From Thermoanaerobaculum sp. (GTDB taxonomy: Bacteria > Acidobacteriota > Thermoanaerobaculia > Multivoradales > UBA5704), in contig JAJKHS010000161.1 of the NCBI GenBank assembly GCA_021154885.1, positions 1-32,055 of the forward strand: DNA of 32,055 nt, read 5' to 3'. The first letter of the stretch is position 1; each line of letters starts with the position of its first letter. Under the pieces are notes generated by a model. That model ran no database searches and was not told where the DNA came from. It saw nothing but the letters and a program-made list of their open reading frames with translations. This document shows, one piece after another, positions 7,567 to 29,048 of the stretch. The position numbers were made by a program, and so were the translations under genes.

Positions 7567-7610
7567 GCCCGCTTCTTGCTTACCCCAATTCCGGTTCCGA
7601 AACAGGCCGC

Positions 7611-9764
7611 ATGAGAACTTTTTCCTCTGTGAACGCGCTTCTCCAGCCGGACGACACGCCGGAGCCGTACCGCATGTTCGACGGCGAGTCGCGAGCTCCT
7701 CTTCGCCCGGTGCCCGATCTGGACGACTCCACCGCCTCCCCGCTGCGGCTGCTGGTGGAGCCCATGCCGGCCATCGTCTGGACCACCGACTGCGACCTCG
7801 TGTTCCACTCCGGCCTGGGAGGCGGGCTGGCCTCCTTCGGCCTGCGGACCACTCCCGGCACCAGCCTCTTCGACTACTACGGCACGCGAGATCCGGATGC
7901 CGTGCCCATCCGCGCCCACCGCCTGGCCGTGACCGGCGAGTCGGTGAGCTATGAGCAGGAGTGGCAGGGCCGGACCTTCCAGACCCGCGTCGAGCCCCTG
8001 CGCGACGAGGCCCGGGCGATCGTGGGCTGCATCGCCGTGGCGGTGGACATCACCGAGCGCAAGCAGGCGGAAGAGGCCCTCTACCGGGAGAAGGAGCGCG
8101 CCCAGGTGACCCTCGCCTCGATCGGCGACGGCGTCATCCGCACCGGTCCCGACGGCGGCATCGACTACCTCAACCCCGTGGCCGAGCGCCTCACCGGCTG
8201 GAAGTCCGAGGACGCCCTCGGCCGCCAGGTCTCCGAGGTCTTCCAGGTCGTCGACGAGCTCACCCGCAGGCCGCTCGCCGATCCGGTCGCGCGTTGCGTG
8301 GCCGAAGGGCGGGTGGTGGAGTCCTCCGGGCACGCGCTGCTCCTCTCGGCCGACGGCAAGGAGTGTGCCGTGCGCGACTCGGCGGCACCCATCTACGACC
8401 GCACCGGCGCCTCCCTCGGCGTCGTCCTGGTCTTCAAGGACGTCACCCAACTCCGGGGCCTGGAGCGCGAGATGGCCTACCTCGCGAGCCATGACGCCCT
8501 GACCGGCCTCATCAACCGCCGCGAGTTCGAGGTGCGCCTGAAGCGGGCCATCCGCACCGGCCGCGCCGAGCGCCGGCACCACGTGCTGCTCTACCTCGAC
8601 CTCGACGAGTTCAAGGTGGTCAACGACACCTGCGGCCACTTGGTGGGCGACGAGATGCTCAAGCAGATCACCGCCCTGCTGCGCTCCCGGGTGCGGCGCA
8701 GCGACACCCTCGCCCGCCTGGGCGGCGACGAGTTCGGCGTCCTCCTGGAGGACTGCCCCCTCGACCACGCCCGCGAGATCGCCGAGGAGATGCGGCGCAC
8801 GGTCCGCGAGTTCCGCTTCTGCTGGCGCGAGCAGATCTTCGAGGTGGGCGTCTCCATCGGCCTCGTCCCCATCGACGCCGACAGCGGCGATCTCGCCCAC
8901 GTCATGAGCGCCGCCGACGCCGCCTGCTACGTGGCCAAGGACAACGGCCGCAACCGCGTCCACGAGTATGAGTTGGACGACACCCTGGTGGCCGAGCGCT
9001 ACGGCGAGATGCAATGGATCCACCGCATCCACCGCGCCTTCGAGGACCGCCGCTTCCGCCTCTTCTACCAGCTTATCCAACCGCTGAACGCCGAGACCGG
9101 CCCTCGCGACCTGCTCTGCGAGGTGTTCATCCGCATGCTGGACGGCACCGGCAAGGTGCTCGAGCCCTCGGCCTTCATCGCCGCGGCCGAGCGCTATCAC
9201 CTCATGGTCTCCCTTGACCGCTGGGTGGTGAAGACCGCTTTCCGCGCCTTGGCCGAGGCCCAGCGCCGCGAGCTGTCGCGGCCCATCCTCTTCGCCATCA
9301 ACCTCTCGGGACAGTCGATCGGCGAGGAGAGCTTCCTCTCCTTCATGATCGAGGAGCTGGAGAGCAGCCGGGTCGATACCCGGCGCATCTGCTTCGAGAT
9401 CACCGAGACGGCGGCCATCAGCAAGCTTGACAGCGCCATCCGCTTCATCAAGGTCCTCAAGGCCAAGGGCTTCCGCTTCATCCTCGACGACTTCGGCAGC
9501 GGCCTCTCCTCCTTCGCCTACCTGCGCGACCTCCAGGTCGACTTCCTGAAGATCGACGGCGAGTTCGTGCAGAACATGATGGAAGACCGGGTGAAGCGAG
9601 CCATGGTCGAGTCCATCAACCAGATCGGCCACGTCATGGGGCTCACCACCATCGCCGAGTGGGTGGAGAACCGCCAGACCCTGGAGGCCCTGAAGGAGAT
9701 CGGGGTCGACTATGCCCAAGGGTACTGGCTCTGCCGGCCGCAGCCCCTGGTGCACGACGTCTGA
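7611..9764 (+). CDS. PAS-PAS-GGDEF-EAL c-di-GMP signalling protein (paralogue)
   Basis: A 717-residue relative of the upstream protein, lacking its first PAS and GAF domains: a divergent PAS (about 45-155, ending VAVDITERKQAEEAL), a second PAS (about 160-285) nearly colinear with PAS3 of the neighbour, GGDEF with the motif intact at 371-375, and EAL with the signature changed to E504-V-F. NLSGQS, FEITETAA, DDFGSGLSSF and FLKIDG are conserved. The frame is open far upstream inside the preceding gene, but ATG 7611 is chosen because the protein-like sequence MRTFSSVNALLQPD begins there. The two genes are on the same strand 44 nt apart and are probably co-transcribed. Long nearly identical stretches in the GGDEF and EAL modules point to tandem duplication followed by sensor divergence. 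Confidence 0.92.
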   Translation: MRTFSSVNALLQPDDTPEPYRMFDGESRAPLRPVPDLDDSTASPLRLLVEPMPAIVWTTDCDLVFHSGLGGGLASFGLRTTPGTSLFDYYGTRDPDAVPIRAHRLAVTGESVSYEQEWQGRTFQTRVEPLRDEARAIVGCIAVAVDITERKQAEEALYREKERAQVTLASIGDGVIRTGPDGGIDYLNPVAERLTGWKSEDALGRQVSEVFQVVDELTRRPLADPVARCVAEGRVVESSGHALLLSADGKECAVRDSAAPIYDRTGASLGVVLVFKDVTQLRGLEREMAYLASHDALTGLINRREFEVRLKRAIRTGRAERRHHVLLYLDLDEFKVVNDTCGHLVGDEMLKQITALLRSRVRRSDTLARLGGDEFGVLLEDCPLDHAREIAEEMRRTVREFRFCWREQIFEVGVSIGLVPIDADSGDLAHVMSAADAACYVAKDNGRNRVHEYELDDTLVAERYGEMQWIHRIHRAFEDRRFRLFYQLIQPLNAETGPRDLLCEVFIRMLDGTGKVLEPSAFIAAAERYHLMVSLDRWVVKTAFRALAEAQRRELSRPILFAINLSGQSIGEESFLSFMIEELESSRVDTRRICFEITETAAISKLDSAIRFIKVLKAKGFRFILDDFGSGLSSFAYLRDLQVDFLKIDGEFVQNMMEDRVKRAMVESINQIGHVMGLTTIAEWVENRQTLEALKEIGVDYAQGYWLCRPQPLVHDV

Positions 9765-9794
9765 TTCAGACCGGCCAAAGAGAAGAAGAGAAGC

Positions 9795-9872
9795 AAGGAC
9801 GACAAGGACGGCAGGGACTCCAAGGACGAGGAAGCCCTGGCGGTTCCTTCGTGCGACGTCCTTGTCGTCCTT
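9795..9872. repeat. Hairpin element with AAGGACG microrepeats, copy 2
   Basis: AAGGACGACAAGGACG at 9795-9810 is the exact complement of 9857-9872. The arms and interior carry the same AAGGAC/AGGGAC words as the element at 4206-4348. It sits between the convergent ends of the GGDEF-EAL gene (stop 9764) and pckA (stop at 9886), so it could serve as a two-way transcription end. Confidence 0.75.
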
Positions 9873-9885
9873 ACTGCCTTTACGT

Positions 9886-11502
9886 CTACGCCCGCACCTT
9901 GCTCGGCCCCGCTGCCTTCACCTCTTCGGTGACGCCGCTCTCGTACTTCTTGAAATTGTCCGCGAACATGTCGGCGAGCTTCGTGGCCTGGGCGTCGTAG
10001 TCCGCCGGGCTCTGCCAGGTCTCCCGCGGGCGGAGGAGCTTGTCCGGCACGCCTTCGACCTTCACCGGCACGTTGAGACCGAAGATCGGGTCCGTCCAGG
10101 TCTCGACGCCGTCGAGCTCGCCCGAGAGGGCCGCCGTCACCATGCGGCGGGTGAAGCCGAGCTTGATGCGTTGCCCCACGCCGTAGGGGCCGCCCGTCCA
10201 GCCCGTGTTGAGCAGCCAGACCCGGGCGCCGTGCCGCTTCAGCTTCTCGCCCAGCATCTCCGCGTAGACCCCGGGATGGAGGGGAAGGAAAGGCGATCCG
10301 AAGCAGGTGCTGAAGGTCACCTTCGGTTCCGTGATCCCCCTCTCCGTGCCCGCCACCTTGGCCGTGTAGCCCGAGAGGAAGTGGTACATGGCCTGCTCCT
10401 CCGTCAGCCGGCTGATCGGCGGGAGCACGCCGAAGGCGTCGCAGGTCAGGAACACCACGTTCTGCGGGTGGCCGGCCTGGCCGCCGAGGTCGACGTTGTC
10501 GAGCTGGGTGAGCGGATAGCTCGAGCGGGTGTTCTCCGTCAGCCGGTCGTCGTCGAGGTCCAGCTTGCGGGTCTGGGGATCGCAGACCACGTTCTCCAGC
10601 ACCGTGGCGAAGCAGCGGGTGGTGGCATAGATCTCCGGCTCGCCCTCGGGCGAGAGACGGATCACCTTGGCGTAGCAGCCGCCCTCGACGTTGAACACGC
10701 CGTCGTCGCTCCAGCCGTGCTCGTCGTCGCCGATGAGCGTGCGGGCGGGATCGGCCGACAGCGTCGTCTTGCCCGTGCCGGAGAGGCCGAAGAACAGGGC
10801 GACGTCGTCCTTCGTCGCGCCGTAATTGGCGCTGCAATGCATGGAGAGCACCCCCTGCTTGGGCAGGTAGTAGTTCATGACGCTGAAGATGCTCTTCTTG
10901 ATCTCGCCGGCGTAGCGGGTGCCGCCGATCAGCACCATGCGCTTCGCCAGGTCCAGGAGGATGAACGTGGAGCTGCGGGTGCCGTCGCGCTGCGGCTCAG
11001 CCTGCAGGTGGGCGACGTTGACCACCGTGAAGCTGGGGACGAAATCCGCCAGCGCCGCCGGATCCTCCTCGCGGATGAACATGTTGCGGGCGAAGAGGTT
11101 GTGCCAGGCGTCCTCGGTGACGACGCGGACGTTGATGCGGTAGCGGGGATCGGCGCCGGCGTAGCCGTCGAAGACGAACACGTCCTTGCCCTTCAGGTGC
11201 TCCTGGGCGCGGGCCAGCAGCGCCTCGAGCTTCTCCCGCTCGAACGGCCGGTTGACCTCCCCCCACCAGACGTCGGCGTCGATCGACGGGTCCTTGACCA
11301 GGAACTTGTCGTTGGGCGACCGGCCCGTGTGCGGCCCCGTCTCGCAGACCAGGGGACCCTCGGCGGCCAGCACCGCCTCGCCGCGCTGCACCGCCATCTC
11401 CACCAGCCGCGCCGGCGGCAGGTTCCAGTAGGCCGTGCGGACCCCCTCGATGCCGTGTTTGTCCAAACCAAAGCTGCTGACGACCGGACCGTCATTTTGC
11501 AT
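9886..11502 (-). CDS. pckA: Phosphoenolpyruvate carboxykinase (ATP)
   Basis: Converts oxaloacetate and ATP to phosphoenolpyruvate, CO2 and ADP, the first committed gluconeogenic step. The 538-residue product is full length. It shows [15 protein letters not shown] near the N-terminus, SMHCSANYG, the P-loop GLSGTGKTT with Lys245, the metal-binding segment [27 protein letters not shown], and the later [13 protein letters not shown] region of ATP-type enzymes. ATG 11502 is chosen because GAGGTGAT lies just upstream; that ribosome site is inside the last codons of the amidohydrolase gene, whose stop is only 4 nt away. Translation of the two is therefore probably coupled. Confidence 0.97.
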
Positions 11503-11506
11503 TCCA

Positions 11507-12832
11507 TCACCTCGGAGAGTGGTTTCCATACGAGGAAAGAAAATCGGCGAGGAGCCGCGACATGACCCGGATGCCCATCGGCACCGCGCTGTCGTCGGCG
11601 CGGAAGGTGGGCGTGTGCAGGCCGCCGGAGGTCGTGCCCGGCGCGACCACGCCGAGCCGGTAGAAGAAGCCGGGCGCCTGATTGGCAAAGTAGGCGAAAT
11701 CCTCTCCGGCCATGCTGGGCTCCACGAGCTTGACGTTGCCCGCCCCCACGATCCGCTCCAGGAGGGGCTGCACGCGGCGGGCCAGCTCCGGATCGTTCAC
11801 CGTGGCGGGGGCGTTGCGCTGGTACTCCATGTCGAACGAGCCGCCGTTGCCCCGGGTGACGCCGTCGAGGATCTCCCGCATCCGCCGCTCCACCAGGTCC
11901 TGCACCTCGGCCTTGTAGGTGCGGACCGTCCCCTCGAGATGGACCTCCCCCGGAATGATGTTGAACCGCTCGCCGCCGCGGACGATCCCCACCGTCAGCA
12001 CGCTGGGCTCCAGGGCCGGGACGTTGCGCGAGCGGATGGTCTGAAATGCCGTGATCGCCTCGGCCGCCATCACCACCGGGTCCACCGCCAAGTGGGGATA
12101 GGCGCCGTGCGCCGGCTTGCCCTTGATGGTGATCCGGAACTGGTCCACGGCCGCCATGGTCGGCCCGGGGTTGAATCCCACCTGGCCTACGGCCAAATCC
12201 GGGAACGAGTGGAGGGCGAAGACCGCCACCGGCTTGCCCTGGGCGAAGGCCCCCTCCGCCAGCATCAGCTCGGCGCCCCCGCGCTCGCCGGCCGGCGGTC
12301 CCTCCTCCGCCGGCTGGAAGATGAAGAGGACGCTCCCCGGCAGGTCCTTCCTCATCGCCGTCAGCACCGTGGCCGTCCCCAGCAGCACCGAGGTGTGGAC
12401 GTCGTGGCCGCAGGCATGGGCCACCCCCACCTCCTGGCCCATGGAGGTGTCCTTCTTCTTCGAGGCGAACGGCAGGTCCGTCTGCTCGACGACCGGCAGC
12501 GCGTCCATGTCTGCCCGCACGGCGATGAGAGGACCGGGCTTGCCCCCCTGAAGGAGCGCCACGACGCCGTACTTCCCGATTCCGGTCCGGGGCTCCAGCC
12601 CCAGCGCGCGCAGGTGGGCGGCCACCAACTCGGCCGTCTGCGCCTCGCGGTTGGACAGCTCGGGATTCTGATGCAGGTGATGGCGCACCTCGACGAGCTG
12701 CGCCGAGACCTTGCCCGCCTCCTGGTCGACCCGGGCGTCGAGGCCGGCGTCCGCACCCCACGCCACAGGCGGAGCCGCCAGGGCGACGAGCAGGACCGGC
12801 ACGATTCGGGCTGTTCTCCAGCGAGGAAGCAT
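11507..12832 (-). CDS. Secreted M20-family amidohydrolase/carboxypeptidase
   Basis: A 441-residue zinc- or manganese-dependent hydrolase of the M20D group (hippurate hydrolase, N-acyl-amino-acid or IAA-amino-acid amidohydrolase type). An N-terminal signal peptide (about 1-26, [17 protein letters not shown]) sends it to the periplasm. Metal-site residues are visible: [15 protein letters not shown] (Cys141, His143, His146), QPAEE (Glu176/177), and a C-terminal HTPTFRADD. The dimerisation lid segment follows [18 protein letters not shown] sits 5 nt before ATG 12832. It is the first gene of a two-gene unit with pckA, an unusual pairing; released amino acids could feed gluconeogenesis, but that is inference. 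The exact substrate cannot be told from sequence. Confidence 0.92.
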
Positions 12833-12984
12833 CGATCTCCTCCAGCAAAGGGATGCCGCCCGGCCGCCCCAGGCGCGCGGCGCGGCTAAGCAAACCCGGG
12901 GAGTTTATACCCAGACGGGGCGTTTTCTCATCTCTTCGGTGCAGGTGTGAACGGATTGCGAGTTTCCGCGATAAGATCCGCTCG

Positions 12985-13218
12985 ATGAGCAATGGAGCCG
13001 CGCCCCACTTTGGGGTCTGCATCAGGAACCAGGGCTGTGAGGATCTTCAGATCCTGAAGCTTTATCCGATTCTCCCTGACCCGACGGCTGAGCAGGCAGG
13101 GCTGATCCGGGTCGTTGACGATTCCGGAGAGGATTATCTCTATCCCGCTGAGAACGTCATTCCTGTTCCGCTGCCAGATGCGATCGAGCAGATCCTTCGA
13201 CGATTCCCGTCAGCGTGA
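12985..13218 (+). CDS. Small conserved hypothetical protein
   Basis: A 77-residue protein starting MSNGAAPHFGVCIRNQGCEDLQ. It resembles a small family I recall from many phyla whose members read 'C-I-x-N-x-G-x-E-D-L-x-x-x-K-x-Y-x-x-L-P-D', then 'GxxRVxDxSGEDYLYP', then 'PxxLPxAxxxxL'; here VCIRNQGCEDLQILKLYPILPD, LIRVVDDSGEDYLYP and VIPVPLPDAIEQIL fit well. The role is unknown; the fold is probably a small beta barrel. ATG 12985 is chosen because family similarity begins there, though the frame is open upstream. It is divergent from the amidohydrolase gene and convergent with vapC. Confidence 0.8.
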   Translation: MSNGAAPHFGVCIRNQGCEDLQILKLYPILPDPTAEQAGLIRVVDDSGEDYLYPAENVIPVPLPDAIEQILRRFPSA

Positions 13219-13289
13219 GATCCAGGTAGGTAGCCATGGCCCTACCATTGTTCCTCCCCCTTCGGGGCCGTCCCAATCGCGTCGCTTCA

Positions 13290-13748
13290 TCAAGTCTCAG
13301 GACTTGGAACAGCCGATGCTCCGGCAGTGAAGGGATTGACAACTCGCACCCCGCGGAGGATCTGACCGTCGTTGAGATCTTCGGTATAGAGAATATCTGC
13401 GCCGCTGCGGACGGCTGCGGCCACGACCAGCGCGTCCCAGAACGAGAGGACGGCGTCGCGCGATAGCAGGACCGCCTCCCGAATGAGGGACAGATCGGAA
13501 ATGATCACCGGCCAGGCAGCAAAGTCGTCGAGCTTTGCGAGCGCGCGATCAGGACTCCACAAAGGCCGAGCCTTCCGCGTCATCGTGACGTAGAATTCCT
13601 GGAGCACCTGCGTACTCAGGCGCAGCCGGTCCTCGTCCATCAGGCGTGAAAGCAGTTGCGTTGCGGAGCGGTGTCGAGTCGGGTCTGCGCTATCAAAGGC
13701 ATAGACGAGGACGTTGGTGTCGACGAAGGCCGGTGCCTCATCGTCCAT
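13290..13748 (-). CDS. vapC: VapC-type PIN-domain toxin
   Basis: A 152-residue PIN-domain endoribonuclease, the toxin of a VapBC pair. The four acidic active-site positions are visible: Asp in FVDTNVLVYAFD, Glu in LSTQVLQEFYV, Asp in LSFWDALVV, and Asp in YTEDLNDGQ. FVDTNVLVYAFDSADPTRH and ILYTEDLNDGQ are typical of this branch. The frame is open upstream, but ATG 13748 overlaps the end of vapB by 11 bp and starts the PIN fold (MDDEAPAFVDTN). VapC proteins usually cleave tRNA or rRNA; the target here is unknown. It is convergent with the 77-aa gene. Confidence 0.9.
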   Translation of the reverse strand: MDDEAPAFVDTNVLVYAFDSADPTRHRSATQLLSRLMDEDRLRLSTQVLQEFYVTMTRKARPLWSPDRALAKLDDFAAWPVIISDLSLIREAVLLSRDAVLSFWDALVVAAAVRSGADILYTEDLNDGQILRGVRVVNPFTAGASAVPSPET

Positions 13749-13968
13749 ATAAGTCCTCGCGCGTCCAGGTGCGGGGACCGACCTCCACCAACTCCTCCCG
13801 CATCGCGCGCTTGAGGCGCTCGGCCGCGGCACGGCGCCGGCTCTCGCGCGCAACCAGGTCTGCCAAGTGATCGCGCACGAGCTGGTTGAGGGTCGTGCCG
13901 TGCTCGAGCGCCAGCCTGCGTGCAGCCTCGAGCACCTCGTCTTCAATCGCCAGGGTCAGGTTCCGCAC
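13738..13968 (-). CDS. vapB: VapB-type ribbon-helix-helix antitoxin
   Basis: A 76-residue antitoxin: RNLTLAIEDEVLEAARRLALEHGTTLNQLVRDHLADLVARE is a ribbon-helix-helix DNA-binding domain, and the C-terminal tail (REELVEVGPRTWTREDLYGR) would bind the toxin groove. It starts at GTG 13968 with GGAGGA 6 nt upstream. Its stop lies 11 bp inside vapC. A palindrome upstream (13996-14008) is a likely autoregulatory site. Confidence 0.88.
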   Translation of the reverse strand: MRNLTLAIEDEVLEAARRLALEHGTTLNQLVRDHLADLVARESRRRAAAERLKRAMREELVEVGPRTWTREDLYGR

Positions 13969-13978
13969 TTTCTATCCT

Positions 13979-14008
13979 CCACAGGATCAGTGTACCACAG
14001 GACCTGTG
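13979..14008 (-). promoter_or_regulatory. vapBC operator candidate
   Basis: CACAGGACCTGTG (13996-14008) is a perfect 13-bp palindrome. The half-site CCACAGGA occurs at 13979 and again at 13995, 16 bp apart. On the minus strand a -10-like TACACT (13994-13989) lies between them, about 20 nt before the vapB start. The arrangement fits binding of two VapB dimers across the promoter. Confidence 0.45.
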
Positions 14009-14162
14009 TGCAAGCCGTTCTCTCCCCAAGAGCCGGAAAATTCGCCGGGCGCTGGGCTCGGCCTCCGGCTTGCCTCCGCCCCATGGCACCCTGTCGGGAG
14101 CGGCGGACTCGCCCCCGGTCATGACGGCCGGCGCGGCGCAGCCGCCCCTGAAAGGAGCCCCC

Positions 14163-14459
14163 ATGCGTTCCTTCCTCTCCCGCCGCTCGGCCGCGGCCCT
14201 CCTCCTCACCCTCCTGCTCGCCGCCCTTTCCCCGGGCCTCGCCCTGGCCCGCTCCCGCCCACGGGCCGCCGAGCCGCGGCAGCCCGCCCCGGCGAGCGTC
14301 CTCTCCCGGCTGGGAGACTGGCTCCTGGCCTTCGTGGAGAAGAATGGAGCGGAGGTCGACCCCAATGGCGCTCCGAAGAATGTCAGTCCGGCCCCGCCGC
14401 CGGGACCGCCCGCCACGACGGACAACGGCGCCGAGTTGGATCCGAACGGCCGGCTCTGA
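14163..14459 (+). CDS. Small secreted Pro/Ala-rich protein with repeated DPNG motif
   Basis: A 98-residue protein with a strong signal peptide (MRSFLSRRSAAALLLTLLLAALSPGLALA). The mature part has a short conserved-looking helix (VLSRLGDWLLAFVEKNGAEVDPNG), a Pro-rich linker and then a repeat of the same tail, NGAELDPNG, just before the stop. AAAGGAG lies 7 nt before ATG 14163; the frame is open upstream but without protein character. An intrinsic terminator follows. Duplicated acidic DPNG motifs might bind calcium or be a sorting signal, but I know no assigned function. Confidence 0.8.
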   Translation: MRSFLSRRSAAALLLTLLLAALSPGLALARSRPRAAEPRQPAPASVLSRLGDWLLAFVEKNGAEVDPNGAPKNVSPAPPPGPPATTDNGAELDPNGRL

Positions 14460-17018: not shown

Positions 17019-17324
17019 CTAAGCCGTCCGAGCAAGCACCGCCACCTCAGTGGCGAGCCGATCTCCAAGCCGATCTTTTTCTGTCTCCAGGTCGTAGAGC
17101 GCCTGCAGGTTGAGCCAGAACCTCTCCGAGGTCCCAAAATAACGCGCGAGTCGCAGGGCAGTATCCGCGGTAATCGATCGTTTCCCAAGTACAATCTCGT
17201 TGATCCGGCGAGGAGGAACGCTGATGTCTCTGGCGAGCCGGTACTGGCTTAGGCTTAAAGGAGCAAGAAACTCCTCCGAAAGGATTTCGCCAGGGTGAAC
17301 CGGTGGCATCTTCTGCTGCGACAT
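17019..17324 (-). CDS. higA: HigA-family antitoxin (XRE helix-turn-helix)
   Basis: A 101-residue antitoxin and repressor. PPVHPGEILSEEFLAPLSLSQYRLARDISVPPRRINEIVLGKRSITADTALRLARYFGTSERFWLNLQALYDLE is the classic HigA/VapI-type helix-turn-helix domain. It is downstream of the toxin, separated by 15 nt, the usual inverted order of higBA. It probably represses the promoter at 17630-17658. Confidence 0.93.
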   Translation of the reverse strand: MSQQKMPPVHPGEILSEEFLAPLSLSQYRLARDISVPPRRINEIVLGKRSITADTALRLARYFGTSERFWLNLQALYDLETEKDRLGDRLATEVAVLARTA

Positions 17325-17339
17325 GTGGCCGCTTCCCCA

Positions 17340-17621
17340 CTAATGGTAGTCGACGATCTCCACGTCCATTGCATCCCCGTCCTTCCAGACGAAACAAATT
17401 CGCCAACGCTCGTTGATCCGGATGCTGTGCTGCCCTTCACGATCTCCGGTGAGTTTCTCGATCCGGTTTCCAGGAGGCTGACGCAAGTCCTGAATGGAGA
17501 CGGCTGAATCGAGGAGCACGAGTTTCCTCAGCGCGTTGCGCAAGACATCCGGCGGCAACCGCCGCGATCCCAGGCGGAGGAAGAGCCGCTCCGTCTCGGG
17601 ATCACGGAAGCTCCGGATCAT
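17340..17621 (-). CDS. higB: HigB-family toxin (RelE-like ribonuclease)
   Basis: A 93-residue RelE-superfamily toxin expected to cut mRNA on the ribosome. IRSFRDPETERLFLRLGSRRLPPDVLRNALRKLVLLDSAVSIQDLRQPPGNRIEKLTGDREGQHSIRINERWRICFVWKDGDAMDVEIVDYH is a complete HigB, including the RINERWRICF strand that carries the basic active-site residues. The ATG at 17621 lies 8 nt after the predicted -10 box and has no Shine-Dalgarno, so the transcript may be leaderless. It begins 11 nt beyond the purK stop codon on the same strand. Confidence 0.93.
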   Translation of the reverse strand: MIRSFRDPETERLFLRLGSRRLPPDVLRNALRKLVLLDSAVSIQDLRQPPGNRIEKLTGDREGQHSIRINERWRICFVWKDGDAMDVEIVDYH

Positions 17622-17629
17622 CAGAAGGC

Positions 17630-17658
17630 ATGTTAACGCCGGCCGTTAATAGGGTCAA
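17630..17658 (-). promoter_or_regulatory. higBA promoter and operator embedded in the 3' end of purK
   Basis: On the minus strand, TTGACC (17658-17653) and TAACAT (17635-17630) are 17 bp apart. Between them is an inverted repeat, TTAACG and CGTTAA (17633-17638 and 17644-17649) around a 5-bp centre. The -35 and most of the operator encode the last residues of PurK (VDPINGRR) and its TAA stop. Confidence 0.6.
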
Positions 17659-19518: not shown

Positions 19519-22470
19519 ATGGTGCGTGTCCGCTCCAACCGCTCAAGGAACTGGGTCTGTGCCCTGGCCGCTCTGCTGCTGGCCTTCGGGCTGGCCGGCT
19601 CGGCTCTCGCTCAGACCGACGTCACCACGAGCCGCATTTCCGGCACCGTGGAAGGTACCGACAAGTCTCCCCTTCCCGGGGTGACCGTCGAGGCCACGAA
19701 CAAGGATACCGGTCTGAAGATCGTCGACGTCTCCGACGCCAAGGGCTTCTACCGGATCCTCAACCTGCCGACCGGCAACTACACTCTCTCGGCGACCCTG
19801 GACGGCTTCGCGACCGCCACCGCCGAAAACGTCCGCCTGCTGCTCGGCTCGACGCCGACCGTCAACTTCACCCTGCAGAGCGCCAAGATCTCCGAGAGCA
19901 TCACGGTGACCAGCGAGGCGCCGCTGGTGGAGGTGACCAACACCACGGTGGGCACCACAATCCAGCAGGAGCAGATCAAGAACATCCCCAGCGCCGGCCG
20001 CGACTTCCGGCAGCTCGTGCTGCTGACGCCGGAGACCCGGCTGGAGTCCGAGCGCAACACCTTGTCACTCTCGGGCGAGCGCGGCATCAACACCAGCGTC
20101 AACGTGGATGGCGTGGACTACAACAACGCCTTCTTTGGCGGCACCGTGGGCGCCGCCGAGGGCCGCGCCCCGCTCTCCATCTCCCAGGAGTCGATCAAGG
20201 AGTTCTCCGTCGTCACCAACGGCGCCTCGGTCGAGTTCGGGCGCTCGGGCGGCGGCTTCGTCAACATCATCACCAAGAGCGGCACCAACAGCCTGCGCGG
20301 CTCGGGCTTCTACTTCAAGCAGCCGCAGAGCCTGATCTCCAACTTCCCGGCGGGCTCGCGGCCGGCCGGGGCGAGCCTGTCGCCCGCCGACCAGAAGAAG
20401 GATCAGTACGGCGGCTCGCTCGGCGGCCCGATCATGCGGGACAAGCTGTTCTACTTCCTGTCCTATGACAAGCAGAAGCAGGACCTCACCGTCCCGATCG
20501 TGGCGGCCCAGCTCGATCCCTCGTTCTTCGCCAGGTACCCGGTCCTCGCCTCGCCGCCCCAGTACGTCCAGACTCAGGATGGCTCCGTCGCCTTCGGCCG
20601 GCTCGACTATCAAGCCACCGAGGCGCACCGGTTCATGCTGCGCGGCAACTTCACCAAGTACAACGGTGTCAACGGCACCTCGAACGCGGGAACCCGCACC
20701 GAGAGCTACAACGGCATCGAAGGGCTGAACGCCAAGTCCTACGTGGGCTCCTACACGGGCCAGTTCAGCGCCAACCTGCTGAACGACCTCAACCTCAACT
20801 ACGTCAACGAGGACACTCCGCGCGCGGACAAGGGGCTCAACCTGCCCGAGATCCAGGTGGGCGGCCTGCGCTTCGGCGAGGTGAGCTTCCTGCCGATCGC
20901 CACCACCACCAAGCGCAAGGCGTTCGCCGACACCGTCACCTACCTGCTCGACCGCCACGTCGTCAAGGGCGGCGTCGAGTACAACGAGACGAGCGTGGAC
21001 CAGGTCTTCAAGGGCAACTGGCGTGGCGTCTTCATCTTCGCCAACAACGCCGACTTCCTGGCCGGCAAGTGGCGCGAGTACCGCCAGTTCGGCGGCCTCA
21101 ACGGCCTGACCTCGGACCAGGCGGGCAAGGCCGCGTTCAGCCAGAAGGAGACGGCCTTCTTCCTCCAGGATCAGTGGTTCGTCCGCCCCAACCTCACGGT
21201 CACCGCGGGCGTCCGCCTCGAGAGCCTGGACAACCCGAACGACCCGATCCTCAATCCCAACGATCCCGGTCCGAACGGCACGCTCAAGCTCACCGGCCAC
21301 ATCCCGGACACCAACAACGAGCTCTCGCCCCGGCTGGGCATCTCCTGGGCTCCCGATGAGAAGACCGCGGTCCGCTTCTCGGCCGGCCGCTTCTGGAGCC
21401 GGACCCCGGCCCTGCTGTGGGCCCAGCCATTCACTTCCAACGGCATCCAAGGCGCCCAGCTCTCCATCTTCGCCACCCAGAACTCCAGCGGTGGCGTGAT
21501 CGGAGCTCCGACCGATCCCAACGCTCCAGGCTGGGGCACCGCCTTCACCCCCGTCGGCGTCGAGCGCGTCAATTTCAACAACGTCACCAAGGTCTCGACG
21601 CCCGGCGTCTTCACCGTCAACCCGAACTTCAAGAATCCCTACACCAATCGCGCCACCCTGGGCTTCGAGCGCGAGATCCTGCCCAGGATCTCCCTCGGCC
21701 TCGACTTCACCTACGCCGACGGCCACCAGCTCCAGCGCCTGACCGACATCAACCGCGTATACGACGGCACGACCTCCGTTAACGGCCTGCCTCACTACAG
21801 CTCGACCCGGCCCCTCTTCGCCTACGGCTCGATCATCACCGACCTGTCCGACGCCTCGGCCCACTACAAGGCGGCGACCATCACCCTCCAGCGGCGGTAC
21901 GCGGACAATTTCAGCCTCTACGGCGCGGTGACCTATTCGAAAGACCGGGACAACGACTCCAACGAGCGGAACTTCGCCGGCATCCAGGCGGAGGACGTCA
22001 ACAACCTCGGCCTCAACTGGGGTCCCTCGAACCGCGACCAGACGTGGAAGGGCGTGCTCAACGGCGTCTGGACCACCCCGTGGTGGGGGCTCGGCGTCGC
22101 GGGCGCCTTCCGCTATTACACCGGCCAGCCGTTCACCCCGACCGCCAACGCCGATCTCAACAACGACGGCCAGTCCGGGACGGACCGTCCGACGATCAAC
22201 GGCGTGCACCTCGGCCGCAACAGCGAGCGCCAGCCCGACTTCTACACGCTGGACATGCGGCTCAGCAAGAGCATCCGAGTCGGTCCCACTGACCTCTCCA
22301 TCTTCGCCGAATGCTTCAACTGCGCGAACAAGGCGAACCGGTTCATCAGCAGCAACGACCAGATCTGGGGCACGCTCCAGACGCCGCGGACGAGCTTCGG
22401 AGTCGAGGATTCCCTGAACGTGGCCTACGTGCCGCGGACCTTCCAGATCGGCGCCCGGTTCGAGTTCTAG
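19519..22470 (+). CDS. TonB-dependent receptor with carboxypeptidase regulatory-like domain (Oar type)
   Basis: A 983-residue outer-membrane beta-barrel. A signal peptide ends at about residue 31 (LLLAFGLAGSALAQ). Residues 38-118 form a carboxypeptidase-regulatory-like beta sandwich (ISGTVEGTDKSPLPGVTVEATNKDTGLKIVDVSDAKGFYRILNLPTGNYTLSATLDGF), about 120-260 the plug (NIPSAGRDFRQLVLLTPE, NVDGVDYNN, GASVEFGRSGGGFVNIITKSGTN), and the rest the barrel, with GGSLGGPIMRDKLFYFLSYD early on. The chain ends ...QIGARFEF, a terminal Phe as expected for BAM-inserted proteins. Acidobacteriota carry dozens of such receptors, for which glycans, peptides or siderophores are possible ligands; the substrate cannot be read here. 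AAAGGAGG precedes ATG 19519. A strong terminator follows. Confidence 0.95.
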   Translation: MVRVRSNRSRNWVCALAALLLAFGLAGSALAQTDVTTSRISGTVEGTDKSPLPGVTVEATNKDTGLKIVDVSDAKGFYRILNLPTGNYTLSATLDGFATATAENVRLLLGSTPTVNFTLQSAKISESITVTSEAPLVEVTNTTVGTTIQQEQIKNIPSAGRDFRQLVLLTPETRLESERNTLSLSGERGINTSVNVDGVDYNNAFFGGTVGAAEGRAPLSISQESIKEFSVVTNGASVEFGRSGGGFVNIITKSGTNSLRGSGFYFKQPQSLISNFPAGSRPAGASLSPADQKKDQYGGSLGGPIMRDKLFYFLSYDKQKQDLTVPIVAAQLDPSFFARYPVLASPPQYVQTQDGSVAFGRLDYQATEAHRFMLRGNFTKYNGVNGTSNAGTRTESYNGIEGLNAKSYVGSYTGQFSANLLNDLNLNYVNEDTPRADKGLNLPEIQVGGLRFGEVSFLPIATTTKRKAFADTVTYLLDRHVVKGGVEYNETSVDQVFKGNWRGVFIFANNADFLAGKWREYRQFGGLNGLTSDQAGKAAFSQKETAFFLQDQWFVRPNLTVTAGVRLESLDNPNDPILNPNDPGPNGTLKLTGHIPDTNNELSPRLGISWAPDEKTAVRFSAGRFWSRTPALLWAQPFTSNGIQGAQLSIFATQNSSGGVIGAPTDPNAPGWGTAFTPVGVERVNFNNVTKVSTPGVFTVNPNFKNPYTNRATLGFEREILPRISLGLDFTYADGHQLQRLTDINRVYDGTTSVNGLPHYSSTRPLFAYGSIITDLSDASAHYKAATITLQRRYADNFSLYGAVTYSKDRDNDSNERNFAGIQAEDVNNLGLNWGPSNRDQTWKGVLNGVWTTPWWGLGVAGAFRYYTGQPFTPTANADLNNDGQSGTDRPTINGVHLGRNSERQPDFYTLDMRLSKSIRVGPTDLSIFAECFNCANKANRFISSNDQIWGTLQTPRTSFGVEDSLNVAYVPRTFQIGARFEF

Positions 22471-25118: not shown

Positions 25119-26165
25119 TCAGTCGAGCCATAGGGCTGCCACTATTGCCAGGCCGATGATGGCATAGAGCGCGCGGTAACGTGCTTGCAGGCGGCGGATG
25201 CTCGCGTAGGTGAGGCCCTCGGCCAGAGTCTTGAGCGACCAGCGTAGGTGAACGGGGTAGAGGACGACGAGGGCTGCCAGGGGATGGGGGAGGATGCCCT
25301 GGAGGGCCAGGAGGAGAAGGAGGGCGTGGGCCAGGGTGAAGAGGGCCAGGCTGGCGGCGAAGGTACGGCGTGGGCCGAAGATCACCGCGTTGGTCCTGAT
25401 GGCGTTGAGGACGTCGCCCTGGTGGTCGCTGACCTCTTGGGTCAGGTGGCCGGCGGCGAAGGTCAGGGCGAAGAAGGTGGCAGTGGCGAGGCCGCGACGG
25501 TCGATGGCGTTCCCCAGGGAGTAGCCGAGGAGGAAGTGGAGGGCGCCGCCGGCCAGGTGGGCCGCTGAGTTGAGGAGCGGTCTGCCCTTCCAATTCAAGT
25601 GGGGCAGGGAGTAGAGGGCGCTCAGGGCAGCGATTGCCAGTGACAGCCAGAGGGTGCTTGGGCCGAGGCGGCTGAAGAGGAGGAGACTCAGGACCAGCAG
25701 GCTGGCCGCCAGACCGCCGATCTCCTTGCGGCCTACACCTCTGGCCGTGAAGACGCTGGCGGCCTTGTTGGGATCGGTGAGGTCGGTGGTCAGGCCGGAC
25801 CAGTCGTTGAGCATGAAGATGTGCGCCATCAGGCAGACGTTGGCGACGGTGAGGATCGCCAGCGGCCCCACGTTCTCCGCCGCCGGGTGGCGGATCGCGA
25901 AGGCGGCGCCGAGCAGGGGCGAGCCCTGGAGAACGAGGATCTCTTGCAGGCGCAGGCAGGACAGGTAGCGGCGAAGGCGCTCGCCAGGGCGGCCTCCGGT
26001 CGAGATGGCAGCCGGCACGGCGGGCGCAAATCGGGGCGGAGCCTGCCGGGGGGCCTGCCGGGGGATCGTCGCCGGCCTAGATGGCGGCGTGCGATCCGTC
26101 ACCGGTGGCTTGAGCCGCGCCGCGGAAGCTTCAGCCGTTCGAATGAGGGTGCTTGAGATGCGCAT
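25119..26165 (-). CDS. UbiA-family membrane prenyltransferase with an altered first Asp motif
   Basis: A 348-residue multi-pass protein of the UbiA superfamily, which transfers or cyclises prenyl diphosphates in the membrane. After a Pro/Arg-rich cytoplasmic stretch (1-65), LRRYLSCLRLQEILVLQGSPLLGAAFA begins the helical core of about eight segments. The first Asp motif reads ND-x-x-G-x-x-x-D (N120, D121, G124, D128), with Gly replacing the middle Asp. The second is SDHQGD (D247, D251). SALYSLPHLNWKGRP is the usual YS-x-P region. ATG 26165 overlaps the upstream gene by 35 bp, indicating tight coupling; an in-frame GTG at 26018 is an alternative that removes the odd leader. Two Asp sites remain, so catalysis is plausible, but the substrate is unknown. 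Confidence 0.85.
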   Translation of the reverse strand: MRISSTLIRTAEASAARLKPPVTDRTPPSRPATIPRQAPRQAPPRFAPAVPAAISTGGRPGERLRRYLSCLRLQEILVLQGSPLLGAAFAIRHPAAENVGPLAILTVANVCLMAHIFMLNDWSGLTTDLTDPNKAASVFTARGVGRKEIGGLAASLLVLSLLLFSRLGPSTLWLSLAIAALSALYSLPHLNWKGRPLLNSAAHLAGGALHFLLGYSLGNAIDRRGLATATFFALTFAAGHLTQEVSDHQGDVLNAIRTNAVIFGPRRTFAASLALFTLAHALLLLLALQGILPHPLAALVVLYPVHLRWSLKTLAEGLTYASIRRLQARYRALYAIIGLAIVAALWLD

Positions 26166-28899
26166 GTTCGTAAGCGAGCCTCAGCCAGAGCGCGTAGCCG
26201 GCGTCCTCCGACCAATAGTATCTGGGGGTCGTCGCGGTGAGATCGTTGTGGTAGAGGAGCGGCGGACTCTTTCGCAAAAGGGCAAAGTCGTCTTTGGCAA
26301 GCTGGCGCAGCACCGCCTGGATTTTCACCGCGTCGGCCGCGTCGGCCGGTGGGCCTCCGGGGGGCAGCGCGCGCCCCAGTAGCCGGACGACGGACACCCA
26401 GATCTCCTGGCCTGGCACCGGCGTCCGCATCCGCGACTCGGGCAGCTCCAGCTCGCAGCCGGCGCGCCGGAGGTCGCTCAGGCGCAGGATCGGGACCAGC
26501 GGCGCCATTCGATAGTAGACCCAGACCCGATCCTGGTCTACAACTGGGCGGAGAGCTTCGCAGAGCGCACGGCCGGCCGGCGGCTGCACCTTGGCAAGCA
26601 GCAGCAGCACGTGCATCTGGATGGTGATGTCGGCAGGGTTAGGATCGCCGCCGGGGTCGAGGCACTGGTAGGCCTCACGCGGCGCGAGCCAGGTGCGGTA
26701 GAGGCCCTCGCGGGTGCGATATTGGTCGAGGGTCGCCAGGGCGGCCGGCAGCCGCCGGCGATCCCGGCGGTCATTGTCGGGAGCGAGCCTCCAGACGAGC
26801 GCCGTGTCGTCGGTATCGGGTGTGATAGCGCACCCCAGGGTGCCGATGCCAGGAGCGTCTGGCAGGCCATGGTAGCGCACCAGTCCGCCGGCCTCGATCT
26901 GGCCGGTGAGGTGCTGGCGGGCGCGCTGCAAGCTGTCGCCGAGACCGCCGGTGGCCGCCAGCGGATCGAGCAGGTCGAGCAGGAGAGCGGTGAGGAAGGT
27001 GTTCATCTCCTGGCGCGGCTCCTGGAAGTGCGCCGCGCTCGTGTAGGCGGTGAGCCAGTAACCCGGCCCCTGCTGGTGCGCACGAAGCCGCGCCGCTGCC
27101 GTCCTGAAGCCGTCGTCGAGGTCCTCCGGTGCCATCCGCACGGTCAGCTTGCGCTCCTCCAGGTAATATCCCTCTCCCTTCTCGGAGGCCCAGGCGAAGG
27201 CGGTCAGCTTGTGCTCGCCGGGAGCGAGGCCGGCCGTGCCGAGTGGGATGCGCCAGCCGGCGGGGCTCGCCTCGTGCAGCGTACCGCGGACGTCGGGCCG
27301 GTCGAAGAAGGTGCGGGAGGCGACGGTCTGTCGGCCGTCGATGATCACTGCCACCTGCCAGGGCGTTGCGTGGCCGGCCAGTGCCCAGCCGGCGGCGACA
27401 ACCTCCTGGCCGGCGGTGACAGCGGAGGTCGCGCGGCCGCCGGCCTCAATGGCGTCGAGATTGCCGCGCATCTCGATCATCAACTCCGCCGGCGCGAGGC
27501 CATGCTGTAAGGAAGCGACGAAGGGTGCATTCCGCCAGTCCCACGCGGCCCGCATCTGGTGGGGACCGCTGGCAACGGCGAAGATCGCGCTGTCGGTCGC
27601 GCCGGTGTACCAGAAGGCGCCGATGGCTTCGATGGCGACCGCGGCGCCGACCGCAAGCAGGAAGCACGTCCGGCCGAGGCCGCGCAGTGCGGCGACCACC
27701 GGCACCAGCATCCACAGGAGCAGCGGCAGGAGGTCGGTCATATAGCGCGGCCCCCAGGAGATGCCGGCCCGCCAGTCGGCCTTGGCATAGAGCAAGACCT
27801 GGAGAACGACGCCGACGCTTATCGCCAGGGTGAGGCCGCGCTCGCCGCGCTGGCTGCGGTCATGCGGCAGGTGCCTCCAGGCCAGGACGAGGAAGAGCAG
27901 GAAGGGTGAGAAGACGAACAGCCCCCGCGTCGGGCTGAACAGCAATCCGCCGAGGCCGGAAAGCAGGTCGTGCTGGAAGAAGCGGGCCTTGCCCATCAGC
28001 CCGTAACCGCCGGCGAAGTGGCCGGCCACGCCGAGGTTGTAGAGCAGCACCAAGCCCGCCGGCAGCGCCGCCGCGGCGGCGAGCAGCGCCGCCCGGCGGC
28101 CGGCCCAGAACAGTCCGTAAGCGCCCAGCACCGCCGCGAGGATGACATCCGGAGGGCGGGTGCCGGCGATGAGCCCGCACAGCAACCCCGCCGCAAGCGC
28201 CCGCGGCGCGGTGCACGGCCCGGTGAGGAGCAGCAGTGCGCCGATCACCAGGAGCTCAGCCATCCCGTGCTGCCACAGAGCCTGGCTGCTGATCACCCAT
28301 GTGGTGGTGCCGAAGGCATAAGCCAAGGTGAGCAGCAGTGCGATCGGCGCCGCCGCCCGGCGCCGCAGCAGCAGGTAGAGGAGTGACACGGAAAGCGCCG
28401 CCATGAGCGAGGCGGACAGCTTCTCCATGACCCTTGCTATGTGGTCCAGCCGCCCATCCGTCCAACCCCGCAGGTGCAGGTAACCGACCGCGGGGAGGTA
28501 GAGCGGCGCGATGAGCACCGGCAGCACCACGGGGTACAGCGAGATGACGTGGCCGCCGCGCGCATGCACCATCCAGAACGCCGTATCGCCTCGCCCTTGG
28601 GCGGTGAGCGTCGCGATCGGATCGAGAAGGATGCTGTGGTACTGCCAGATCGCGAACGGCAGGTAGCGCGCCGGGTAGGTGTCGCCGGCGCTGATCGCCC
28701 GCCGGTTGGCGTTGTAGACCAGCAGGCAGCAGAGCCCGATGAGCAGGCTCGCCCGCAACTCGCGCCGGCCGCGCAAGAAACGTTGGGCTTGCCCATGCTC
28801 CTCACCGGACGCCGAGCCAGGAACCGGACCACAGCCGCGGACCTGGGCCTCGGGCTGAGCGGCGGGTGCAGACCGCCTGCCGCCGAGGACGGGGGTCAT
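26131..28899 (-). CDS. GT-C-like membrane protein fused to DXDD-type helical cyclase-like domain
   Basis: A 922-residue protein (from ATG 28899; a GTG at 28983 would add 28 residues). Residues about 50-445 are a polytopic region resembling GT-C/PMT-type glycosyltransferases that use polyprenyl-phosphate sugars: RAISAGDTYPARYLPFAIWQ follows the first helix, and FGTTTWVISSQALWQHG, SPTRGLFVFSPF and GISWGPRYMTDLLPLLL follow. About 470-590 is a beta-rich region. From about 595 on comes a helical domain with YTSAAHFQEPRQEMNTFLTALLL, RARQHLTGQIEAGGLVRYHG, ITPDTDDTALVWRL and EGLYRTWLAP. D695-x-D697-D698-T-A matches the catalytic DXDDTA of class II terpene cyclases. The fusion to a membrane glycosyltransferase and overlap with a UbiA gene suggest polyprenol or terpenoid-lipid modification. 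Function is inferred. Confidence 0.8.
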   Translation of the reverse strand: MTPVLGGRRSAPAAQPEAQVRGCGPVPGSASGEEHGQAQRFLRGRRELRASLLIGLCCLLVYNANRRAISAGDTYPARYLPFAIWQYHSILLDPIATLTAQGRGDTAFWMVHARGGHVISLYPVVLPVLIAPLYLPAVGYLHLRGWTDGRLDHIARVMEKLSASLMAALSVSLLYLLLRRRAAAPIALLLTLAYAFGTTTWVISSQALWQHGMAELLVIGALLLLTGPCTAPRALAAGLLCGLIAGTRPPDVILAAVLGAYGLFWAGRRAALLAAAAALPAGLVLLYNLGVAGHFAGGYGLMGKARFFQHDLLSGLGGLLFSPTRGLFVFSPFLLFLVLAWRHLPHDRSQRGERGLTLAISVGVVLQVLLYAKADWRAGISWGPRYMTDLLPLLLWMLVPVVAALRGLGRTCFLLAVGAAVAIEAIGAFWYTGATDSAIFAVASGPHQMRAAWDWRNAPFVASLQHGLAPAELMIEMRGNLDAIEAGGRATSAVTAGQEVVAAGWALAGHATPWQVAVIIDGRQTVASRTFFDRPDVRGTLHEASPAGWRIPLGTAGLAPGEHKLTAFAWASEKGEGYYLEERKLTVRMAPEDLDDGFRTAAARLRAHQQGPGYWLTAYTSAAHFQEPRQEMNTFLTALLLDLLDPLAATGGLGDSLQRARQHLTGQIEAGGLVRYHGLPDAPGIGTLGCAITPDTDDTALVWRLAPDNDRRDRRRLPAALATLDQYRTREGLYRTWLAPREAYQCLDPGGDPNPADITIQMHVLLLLAKVQPPAGRALCEALRPVVDQDRVWVYYRMAPLVPILRLSDLRRAGCELELPESRMRTPVPGQEIWVSVVRLLGRALPPGGPPADAADAVKIQAVLRQLAKDDFALLRKSPPLLYHNDLTATTPRYYWSEDAGYALWLRLAYEHAHLKHPHSNG

Positions 28900-29048
28900 G
28901 GTTTCATGCTCACTTGCGCTGGCTTCCCACAGGGGTCCGTCTCCATCCACTACGAGTGTTGGCGAGAGGTCGGAGGCTACCACAAGGCGCCGCCGCCAGG
29001 ATGGCAGCGGCCGGGTGGGCGACCGGCGCAGCCCGGGAACCCCGCTGA

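Follow-up and report, generated by a model that had tools for sequence, protein, structure and literature searches.

What might a bacterium make with a protein that joins a glycosyltransferase-like membrane region to a helical domain carrying a DXDDTA motif, and whose gene overlaps one for a UbiA-family protein? This question arises from a locus in Thermoanaerobaculum sp. (assembly GCA_021154885.1, contig JAJKHS010000161.1), and all coordinates below are positions in the window, the whole 32,055-nt stretch of DNA that was analysed. A sequence-only reading of this DNA had suggested that the pair could prenylate, cyclise and glycosylate a membrane isoprenoid or its acceptor in one pathway. The gene pair that it described is confirmed as real (Table 1), and its interpretation as a whole is partly supported.

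Table 1. Features of the fused gene and the adjoining UbiA gene in the window
Feature	Position	Strand	Remarks
Fused gene (GT-C membrane domain, beta-sandwich, terpene-cyclase-like toroid)	26131..28899	-	922 aa from ATG
GT-C glycosyltransferase domain	27505..28767	-	residues about 45-465; about 11 TM helices (hydropathy, own reading)
Asp73	28681..28683	-	invariant, 43/43 rows; shortly after TM1, in first external loop
Beta-sandwich between membrane domain and toroid	27136..27489	-	residues about 471-588; strands in model
Terpene-cyclase-like alpha/alpha toroid	26134..27135	-	residues 589-922; AF2 pLDDT 92.7, pTM 0.92
DTDDTA motif (D695, D697, D698, T699)	26800..26817	-	D, D, D, T in 51/51 rows
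Tyr795-Tyr796 pair	26512..26517	-	invariant, 51/51 rows
UbiA-family membrane prenyltransferase gene	25119..26165	-	348 aa; PF01040 E 3.8e-19; adjoins fused gene in relatives
Altered first Asp motif of UbiA, NDWSGLTTD	25782..25808	-	NDxxGxxxD instead of NDxxDxxxD
Second Asp motif of UbiA, DHQGD	25413..25427	-	DxxxD
Overlap of fused-gene and UbiA frames	26131..26165	-	35 bp; UbiA ATG at 26165, fused-gene TGA at 26133-26131

An alternative GTG start at 28983 would extend the fused protein to 950 aa. The start and stop codons agree with the overlap reported earlier; the first ~60 residues of the window UbiA frame do not align to relatives, so the true UbiA start, and hence the exact overlap in the window genome, is uncertain. 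The 20 other frames scanned in the window include no glycosylation, phosphatase or flippase gene.

Structural comparison revealed that the modelled N-terminal half matches the GT-C glycosyltransferase fold over residues about 38-465, with ALG12 (Z 23.8 over 342 residues), AglB (21.4), ArnT (19.7) and AftB (19.2) among its matches, in line with the proposed resemblance of this region to polyprenyl-phosphate-dependent enzymes; a lipid-phosphate sugar is its putative donor. Identity to these four enzymes is 10-14%, and to our knowledge they all lack a DXDD toroid. In a full-length Foldseek search, the first GT-C match appeared only at E 1.5e-3, with complement proteins ranking above the GT-C chains. 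The NCBIfam model for the LA_3751/LA_3752 putative glycosyltransferase matched this half at E 5.9e-15, its 55 bits falling short of the model's cut-off of 200; no Pfam family matched the N-terminal part, which gave a GT-C match instead of a HAD phosphatase domain. Hydropathy delineated a large first external loop at residues 63-125, and within it Asp73 sits where GT-C enzymes usually have their catalytic Asp; we regard it as the putative catalytic residue.

Mean pairwise identity over 41 rows was 0.36 for the beta-sandwich, 0.52 for the GT-C domain and 0.53 for the toroid. By our own reading of the topology, the toroid is probably extracytoplasmic and faces outward from the inner membrane. This location was absent from the earlier interpretation.

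The C-terminal part, modelled as an alpha/alpha toroid as had been predicted, best matches the terpene-cyclase type of this fold. Foldseek placed a squalene-hopene cyclase (8pak) and AsDMS at the top (E about 2e-5). Among the best 50 VIA-align matches listed, AsDMS came first (Z 24.2 over 275 residues, 3.1 A, about 13% identity), MstE reached Z 20.4 and squalene-hopene cyclases Z 18-20; chains whose titles name another kind of protein began at rank 31 (Z 16.2), and the title of the match at rank 6, 6ij1, was uninformative. Sequence searches returned a different picture: a Pfam scan of 51 toroid members at E up to 10 yielded no cyclase family and no family matching more than 3 of them, a PDB sequence search with the toroid had no cyclase among its matches, and hhalign against squalene-hopene cyclases gave a probability of only 46-57% while aligning another repeat, not DXDD. 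Kinship with known cyclases is unsupported by sequence profiles.

The full DXDDTA match noted earlier, ITPDTDDTALVWRL, is present as D695-x-D697-D698-T699-A700 in the 922-aa numbering, at the start of predicted helix 108-117 of the domain model. The sequence-only reading had made its proposal depend in part on the conservation of DXDD among homologues, and the motif is retained in every row of the 51-row toroid alignment, a partly circular count because 49 rows were recruited by motif patterns, and, less circularly, in 13/13 strong matches of two profile searches. The remote L091 carries DADTT in its place. The distance of the invariant Tyr795-Tyr796 pair from the motif approximates that of Y426-Y427 in AsDMS, so that by spacing only the two pairs may be counterparts. 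In AsDMS, Y426 is a required residue that holds the diphosphate, and Y427 forms a bond to D333, the proton donor (PMC12365925). We consider the toroid a putative class II cyclase.

A UbiA gene adjoins the fused gene in all 13 strong hits of the two profile searches and in 49 of the 51 pattern-found loci; among 98 related genomes, every testable genome with the fused protein (8/8) has a close UbiA, and two others have much weaker matches. The linkage anticipated earlier is conserved. Toroid and UbiA distances correlated (r 0.82, n=47), a value reached in none of 2000 permutations, and at L034 the adjoining UbiA comes from a different subclade within its family. The unit has a scattered distribution across several phyla, and this recurrence, together with the retention of DXDDT in both sets of homologues, indicates that the gene pair is more than chance. 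Six loci keep the toroid and UbiA with a different N-terminal half, either in a single clade (L041, L047, L060, L061 and L065; support 100/100) or, at L090, as DUF6077. The occurrence of the toroid on different N-terminal halves, nearly always beside UbiA, suggests a shared substrate class. A scan of 57 downstream genes found GT2 domains in 14, in neighbour counts that carry no background control, and these domains are only a hint of lipid-phosphate sugar donor use; in two neighbour listings, of 87 and 63 families, no polyprenyl synthase stood among the 25 commonest.

Collectively, the observations are the predicted domain folds, the fusion, motif conservation, the UbiA link and the differing N-terminal half in two lineages. 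A cyclase-like domain on a sugar-transferase-like protein, with a near-constant prenyl-transferase neighbour, points to an undescribed route to a glycosylated isoprenoid lipid. We judge the chances to be even that the pair is a membrane system whose product is an envelope lipid of isoprenoid type carrying both ring and sugar, or else a lipid-linked glycan of the envelope. UbiA would attach a prenyl chain to an acceptor at the inner membrane's cytoplasmic face, and the product would reach the outer leaflet. There the extracytoplasmic toroid, to judge from its fold and conserved DXDDT, would protonate a terminal double bond with D697, while D695, D698 and possibly Y796 assist, and would close at least one ring without a cofactor. 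The membrane domain, given its GT-C fold and D73, would glycosylate the same lipid with a lipid-phosphate sugar as donor. A more specific claim, which we advance tentatively, is that a class II, proton-started cyclase borne by a GT-C enzyme outside the cytoplasm rings a UbiA-made prenyl lipid, yielding a family of ring-bearing isoprenoid glycolipids in several phyla.

The UbiA protein itself belongs to its family (PF01040, 69.4 bits; cut-off 34.2). Its first motif, N120-D-W-S-G124-L-T-T-D128, indeed has Gly in place of the middle Asp described as lost; 46 of 49 rows, that of the window among them, share this Gly, and 3 have Asp. In the second motif the first Asp is kept in 43/49 rows, again with that of the window, and is Gly in 6, and the last Asp is kept in all 49. 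The loss of the first-motif Asp in 46 rows, and in six rows also of the first Asp of the second motif, speaks against the proposal, as does the fact that UbiA plus GT-C is also the signature of lipid-phosphate-sugar pathways.

It is conceivable, if on balance unlikely, that UbiA charges polyprenyl phosphate with a sugar, that the GT-C domain transfers this sugar outside the cytoplasm, and that the toroid, instead of being a cyclase, serves as an accessory domain for binding glycan or lipid. Models for such an arrangement are decaprenyl-phosphate phosphoribosyltransferase, the three-component pentofuranose systems and the carbohydrate-binding modules of other GT-C enzymes. The pentofuranose systems (GT136; PMC11127046) and mycobacterial arabinan synthesis also combine a UbiA-family protein with a GT-C enzyme that has, following TM helix 11, a beta-rich domain of predicted periplasmic location. 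Their UbiA is a polyprenyl phosphoribose synthase, the set includes a phosphatase and a flippase, and the passages covered mention no toroid; mutants of ORF15 at D251, the Asp position lost here, keep some activity in vivo and none in vitro (PMC11127046). GT1, GT2 and nucleotide-sugar genes beside some copies of the fused gene fit this alternative too. However, the UbiA profile matched prenyltransferase structures (7.3e-9 and 3.1e-6) better than the phosphoribosyltransferase DPPR synthase (0.023, third of four matched), and the PRK12875 prenyltransferase model matches 49/49 members, whereas phosphoribosyltransferase models match 8/49 and 6/49. Nor would an exceptionless DXDDT and Tyr pair be expected of a mere binding domain, and the toroid persists where the N-terminal half differs.

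We consider it improbable that the toroid is instead an (alpha/alpha)6 hydrolase, lyase or epimerase acting on a GT-C-made glycan. Such a role would suit the probable periplasmic location and the glycosyltransferase neighbours, and the fold also occurs in glucoamylases, cellobiose epimerases and mannosidases (Z 15-16), but terpene cyclases score well ahead (24 and 20 against 16) and DXDD, placed at a helix start, is the class II cyclase motif. Moreover, 9 of the 40 invariant columns are Trp or Tyr, an aromatic content like that of cyclase cavities. It appears just as improbable that the toroid is a true class II cyclase whose fusion serves folding or location alone, with it and the GT-C domain acting at separate steps or on separate molecules: fungal fusions of a terpene cyclase (TC) with a glycosyltransferase (GT), EfuA and FsoA, catalyse non-consecutive steps with activity raised by fusion (PMC12667498), but the shared substrate class suggested by the differing N-terminal halves beside UbiA argues against it.

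Several known systems resemble the fused protein in part. AsDMS (a HAD-TCbeta drimenol synthase; 9m7d, 9m7e, 9m7f; PMC12365925, PMC9128629), the closest solved fold among those 50 matches, likewise bears a single TC beta domain C-terminal to a second enzyme domain and has a similarly spaced Tyr pair; its acid motif is DXDTT rather than DXDDT, its partner is a HAD phosphatase domain rather than a GT-C membrane enzyme, and the substrate of AsDMS is farnesyl diphosphate. MstE (merosterolic acid synthase, 6sbb-6sbg; about 15% identity) is a single-domain class II cyclase acting on a prenylated acceptor, the kind of reaction proposed downstream of UbiA, and has no GT domain. Squalene-hopene cyclases share the toroid fold, with YPDCDDTA and the like in place of TPDTDDTA; the classical enzyme has two toroid domains, and the window's genome has no PF13243 match at E 1e-10. 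The glycosyltransferase of EfuA and FsoA is a soluble nucleotide-sugar enzyme. These natural fusions serve a single fungal triterpenoid pathway in both their reactions (PMC12667498). The earlier claim of novelty holds in that our literature searches found no described fusion of GT-C with a DXDD terpene cyclase; it does not extend to cyclase fusions in general, as the fungal and the HAD-terpene-cyclase fusions are already known.

The unit is directly testable, since it is carried by named strains: Tahibacter aquaticus DSM 21667 and Acidovorax delafieldii DSM 64 have the window's kind of N-terminal half, and Hydrogenophaga pseudoflava NBRC 102511 has the other kind. Terpene cyclisation is usually seen as a cytoplasmic or cytoplasm-facing step. 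If the proposal is true, this chemistry would gain a new place, in a class II cyclase-like domain borne outwardly by a glycosyltransferase, and the conserved, scattered unit would add an unknown class of envelope lipids.

Re-derivation of the reading frames recovered both genes of the pair, together with an overlap of 35 bp, as the sequence-only reading had placed them. Pfam identified a UbiA domain in the 348-aa product (E 3.8e-19), for which every NCBIfam model listed fell far under its cut-off. The 922-aa product matched no Pfam family at E up to 1, and in NCBIfam its residues 165-399 weakly matched the LA_3751/LA_3752 putative glycosyltransferases (E 5.9e-15; 55 bits against a cut-off of 200). 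Among 20 other window frames scanned, there was no glycosyltransferase or nucleotide-sugar gene of the GT2, GT1 or GDP-mannose dehydratase kind; three long open frames (9712-11565, 11435-12889 and 7563-9755) had no Pfam match at E 1e-3.

Features of the window and of the unfused locus L091 (contig G401:C151)
Feature	Position	Strand	Remark
Fused gene, 922 aa	window 28899-26131	minus	open reading frame
UbiA gene, 348 aa	window 26165-25119	minus	open reading frame
ThiI	window 2685-4205		ordinary
PAS/GAF/GGDEF/EAL protein	window 4600-7566		ordinary
TonB-type outer-membrane protein	window 19519-22470		ordinary
L091 locus frame	7296-8702	plus	
L091 locus frame	4826-5839	plus	
L091 locus frame	12069-14402	minus	

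Modelled alone from 51 aligned rows, the C-terminal toroid reached a pLDDT of 92.7 and a pTM of 0.92, with the DXDDT motif predicted to cap a helix. Foldseek placed a squalene-hopene cyclase (8pak) and the HAD-TCbeta drimenol synthase AsDMS at the top of its matches. VIA-align ranked drimenol synthase entries first (AsDMS, Z 24.2 over 275 residues, 3.1 A), with 6ij1 and the merosterolic acid synthase MstE (20.4) next, then squalene-hopene cyclases (19.9) and, lower, glucoamylases, epimerases and mannosidases at Z 15-16. Sequence profiles gave no link between the toroid and known cyclases, and HHalign against squalene-hopene cyclases did not align the DXDD. An ordinary squalene-hopene cyclase was ruled out by the differing architecture and profiles, and the window's genome (G000) contained no match to that family (PF13243) at E 1e-10. 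The same genome holds a second, weak toroid match (L030, G000:C129:46589-46879; 36% over about 90 residues, E 0.038).

In AsDMS, mutants of D331, D333 and Y427 are all inactive, D333 is bonded to Y427 and held to be the proton donor, and phosphate recognition requires Y373 and Y426 (PMC12365925). The three aspartates and the threonine of the motif, as well as Y795 and Y796, are invariant in 51/51 rows of our toroid alignment, from which L077 and L079 (truncated) and L089 and L091 (remote) are omitted. From their spacing, we propose Y795-Y796 as the counterpart of AsDMS Y426-Y427.

The full-length model (pLDDT 88.2, pTM 0.73) matched GT-C enzymes over residues about 38-465, namely ALG12 (Z 23.8, 342 residues), AglB, ArnT and AftB; in Foldseek the first GT-C chain appeared at E 1.5e-3, beneath several complement proteins. 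The first external loop contains D73, which is shared by 43/43 rows of the fused-protein alignment, made without truncated loci and those with another N-terminal half. Averaged hydropathy, which printed broken segments, Lys/Arg counts and the helices of the model together point, in our reading, to 11 membrane helices and an inside N-terminus; on this topology the beta-sandwich and the toroid would lie outside. This plan resembles that of GT136, the glycosyltransferase of three-component pentofuranose systems, where TM helix 11 is followed by a beta-rich domain predicted to be periplasmic (PMC11127046). The window's genome also encodes a GT-C paralogue (36% identity, 763-aa frame, no toroid match; L002, G000:C116:6824-8080), at a locus that holds, as judged by eye, a GT2-like frame.

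To place the unit among its relatives, we surveyed 98 related genomes and identified the fused protein, whole or in part, in nine, the window's own included; among these, G001 holds a fragment at a contig end and G002 a copy cut by one. In the six fully readable relatives besides the window, the open UbiA frame overlaps the end of the fused gene (frames run stop to stop, so starts are not fixed). Few further neighbours were common at E 1e-10: one locus gave a GGDEF-domain match, and two small window frames (17022-17645), situated there at a distance of 9 kb, have relatives in the G002 locus.

With one genome scanned per species, 51 loci with the toroid were recovered. They were selected by the peptide patterns HQQ[AGP][PE]GYW or ITPD[TA]DDT, and motif counts on them are therefore partly circular. 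These loci come from Acidobacteriota, many Pseudomonadota (Tahibacter, Mesorhizobium, Hydrogenophaga, Acidovorax, Comamonas, Variovorax and Pseudomonas fluvialis), Chloroflexota, Verrucomicrobiota, Gemmataceae and single bins of other groups, where bins may contain foreign contigs. The same GT-C domain is joined to the toroid in 45/51 (by BLAST at E 1e-3, some of them incomplete at a contig end); in five the N-terminal half is a different one, and the L079 copy is truncated. Of the 51 loci, 49 contain a UbiA gene, on the same strand and downstream in 48. Its frame is broken in two in L059 and convergent to the toroid gene in L034; L077 stops within the toroid, and L038 has no UbiA in the locus but two UbiA pieces on other contigs of the same genome. 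The L034 contig is binned as Betaproteobacteria, its toroid lies 11% from that of Thermoanaerobaculia L031, and the two have neighbouring frames in common; it is probably a misbinned Acidobacteriota contig.

The toroid profile matched 8 of 396 genomes of the phylum (seven strongly, one remotely; up to 5 candidates scored per genome) and 6 of 299 genomes from the family of Hydrogenophaga pseudoflava, at E 3.0e-96 or better (up to 7 candidates). The unit is thus rare, at about 2% of genomes in both searches. DXDDT was present in 13/13 strong matches, which are less circular than the pattern-found loci, though the profiles were made from motif-bearing rows; UbiA adjoined the toroid gene in all 13, once upstream rather than downstream. 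Several matches duplicate known loci (L031=G093, L032=G003, L035=G090, L036=G084, L039=G078, L051=G087, L077=G002, L066=G438, L061=G449), and G738 and G543 look identical to L065 and L076, so that four matches are new beyond the pattern loci and first orthologues: G102, G461, G476 and G673. On G461:C1 (L098, L099) an open UbiA adjoins an interrupted toroid gene, which could reflect either gene decay or a fault in the assembly. The presence of DXDDT in all aligned relatives and the recurrence of the pair rule out a chance motif. As to a viral or plasmid origin, viral contigs scanned once with the large protein and plasmids scanned once with the toroid yielded no match.

A UbiA profile, built from rows beside toroids and hence favouring toroid-linked UbiA, matched 10 of the 98 relatives at E 1e-20 (up to 22 candidates scored per genome). 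Eight matches, at E 1.8e-126 or better, all fell in fused-protein genomes; the ninth such genome, G002, stood outside this comparison because its contig stops in the toroid. The other two were much weaker (4.0e-59 and 8.1e-37) and came from genomes without a toroid by the first search. Toroid and UbiA distances were correlated (r 0.82, n 47; 0/2000 permutations as high). The L034 toroid is close to that of L031, but the UbiA beside it groups with those of L049, L052 and L066 and is a replacement from the same family.

In the UbiA alignment, made without L059 and L065, the first motif reads NDxxGxxxD in 46/49 rows, with the Asp retained in three (L071, L073, L090), and the second reads DxxxD in 43/49 and GxxxD in 6/49. 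The GxxxD rows, in which the second motif too has lost its first Asp, belong to Pseudomonas and Comamonadaceae (L057, L063, L074, L076, L078, L080). An initial 7-row profile found nothing in the PDB; the 49-row profile matched four structures, a prenyltransferase (4tq3, 7.3e-9) and DGGGP synthase (3.1e-6) and, more weakly, decaprenyl-phosphate phosphoribosyltransferase (0.023) and UBIAD1 (0.2). Likewise, the prenyltransferase model PRK12875 matched 49/49 members at E 0.01, and phosphoribosyltransferase models matched 8 and 6. These matches bear on the strongest rival explanation, a lipid-phosphate-sugar pathway in which the toroid would be an accessory.

The N-terminal half is not uniform. L041, L047, L060, L061 and L065, which carry a different one, form a single clade (support 100/100, in a tree whose bootstrap had not settled); L060 gave a weak PMT_2 match below cut-off (E 6.5e-4), and four other members of the toroid alignment and L089, scanned alongside, gave none. 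In L090 (G102:C227) this half is DUF6077 (E 2.1e-18). Given this variation in one clade and in L090, the toroid and UbiA are the parts that vary less. The UbiA gene of L090 is located on the upstream side of the fused gene.

The remote locus L091 encodes an unfused toroid with DADTT (profile E 5.1e-6) and a UbiA (Pfam E 1.4e-19) with the canonical NDLCDYDTD. The start of this toroid looks, by eye, like a lipoprotein signal with a lipobox-like motif. Several frames resembling membrane glycosyltransferases and a second toroid-like frame without a proper motif were also noted by eye. L091 is perhaps an unfused form of the toroid/UbiA/glycosyltransferase system; its toroid is 23% identical to the window's, and with that E-value we keep the locus only as a hint rather than count it within the family.

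Neighbouring genes, predicted by a codon-usage script at 43/51 loci, were scanned at E 1e-8 (57 of 86 downstream and 55 of 70 upstream genes). Counted without a background control, GT2 accounted for 14 downstream and 7 upstream genes, GT1 for 10 and 7, and GDP-mannose dehydratase for 3 and 3. A GT2 gene directly follows UbiA in L048, L050, L055 and L057. In Hydrogenophaga, a Crp-like regulator gene lies 22 and 49 bp past the UbiA frame (L060 4104-4883; L061 9872-10594).

Among the matches listed in searches of openly licensed papers, none described a fusion of a GT-C domain with a terpene cyclase. The HAD-TCbeta enzymes (PMC12365925; PMC9128629) and the fungal TC-GT fusions EfuA and FsoA (PMC12667498) are known relatives in kind. 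The predicted folds, the motif, the fusion and the linkage to UbiA are what the analysis shows. The account with the best support, whose substrate, order and product we infer, is that UbiA would make a prenyl lipid, the toroid would cyclise it, and the GT-C domain would then glycosylate the lipid.
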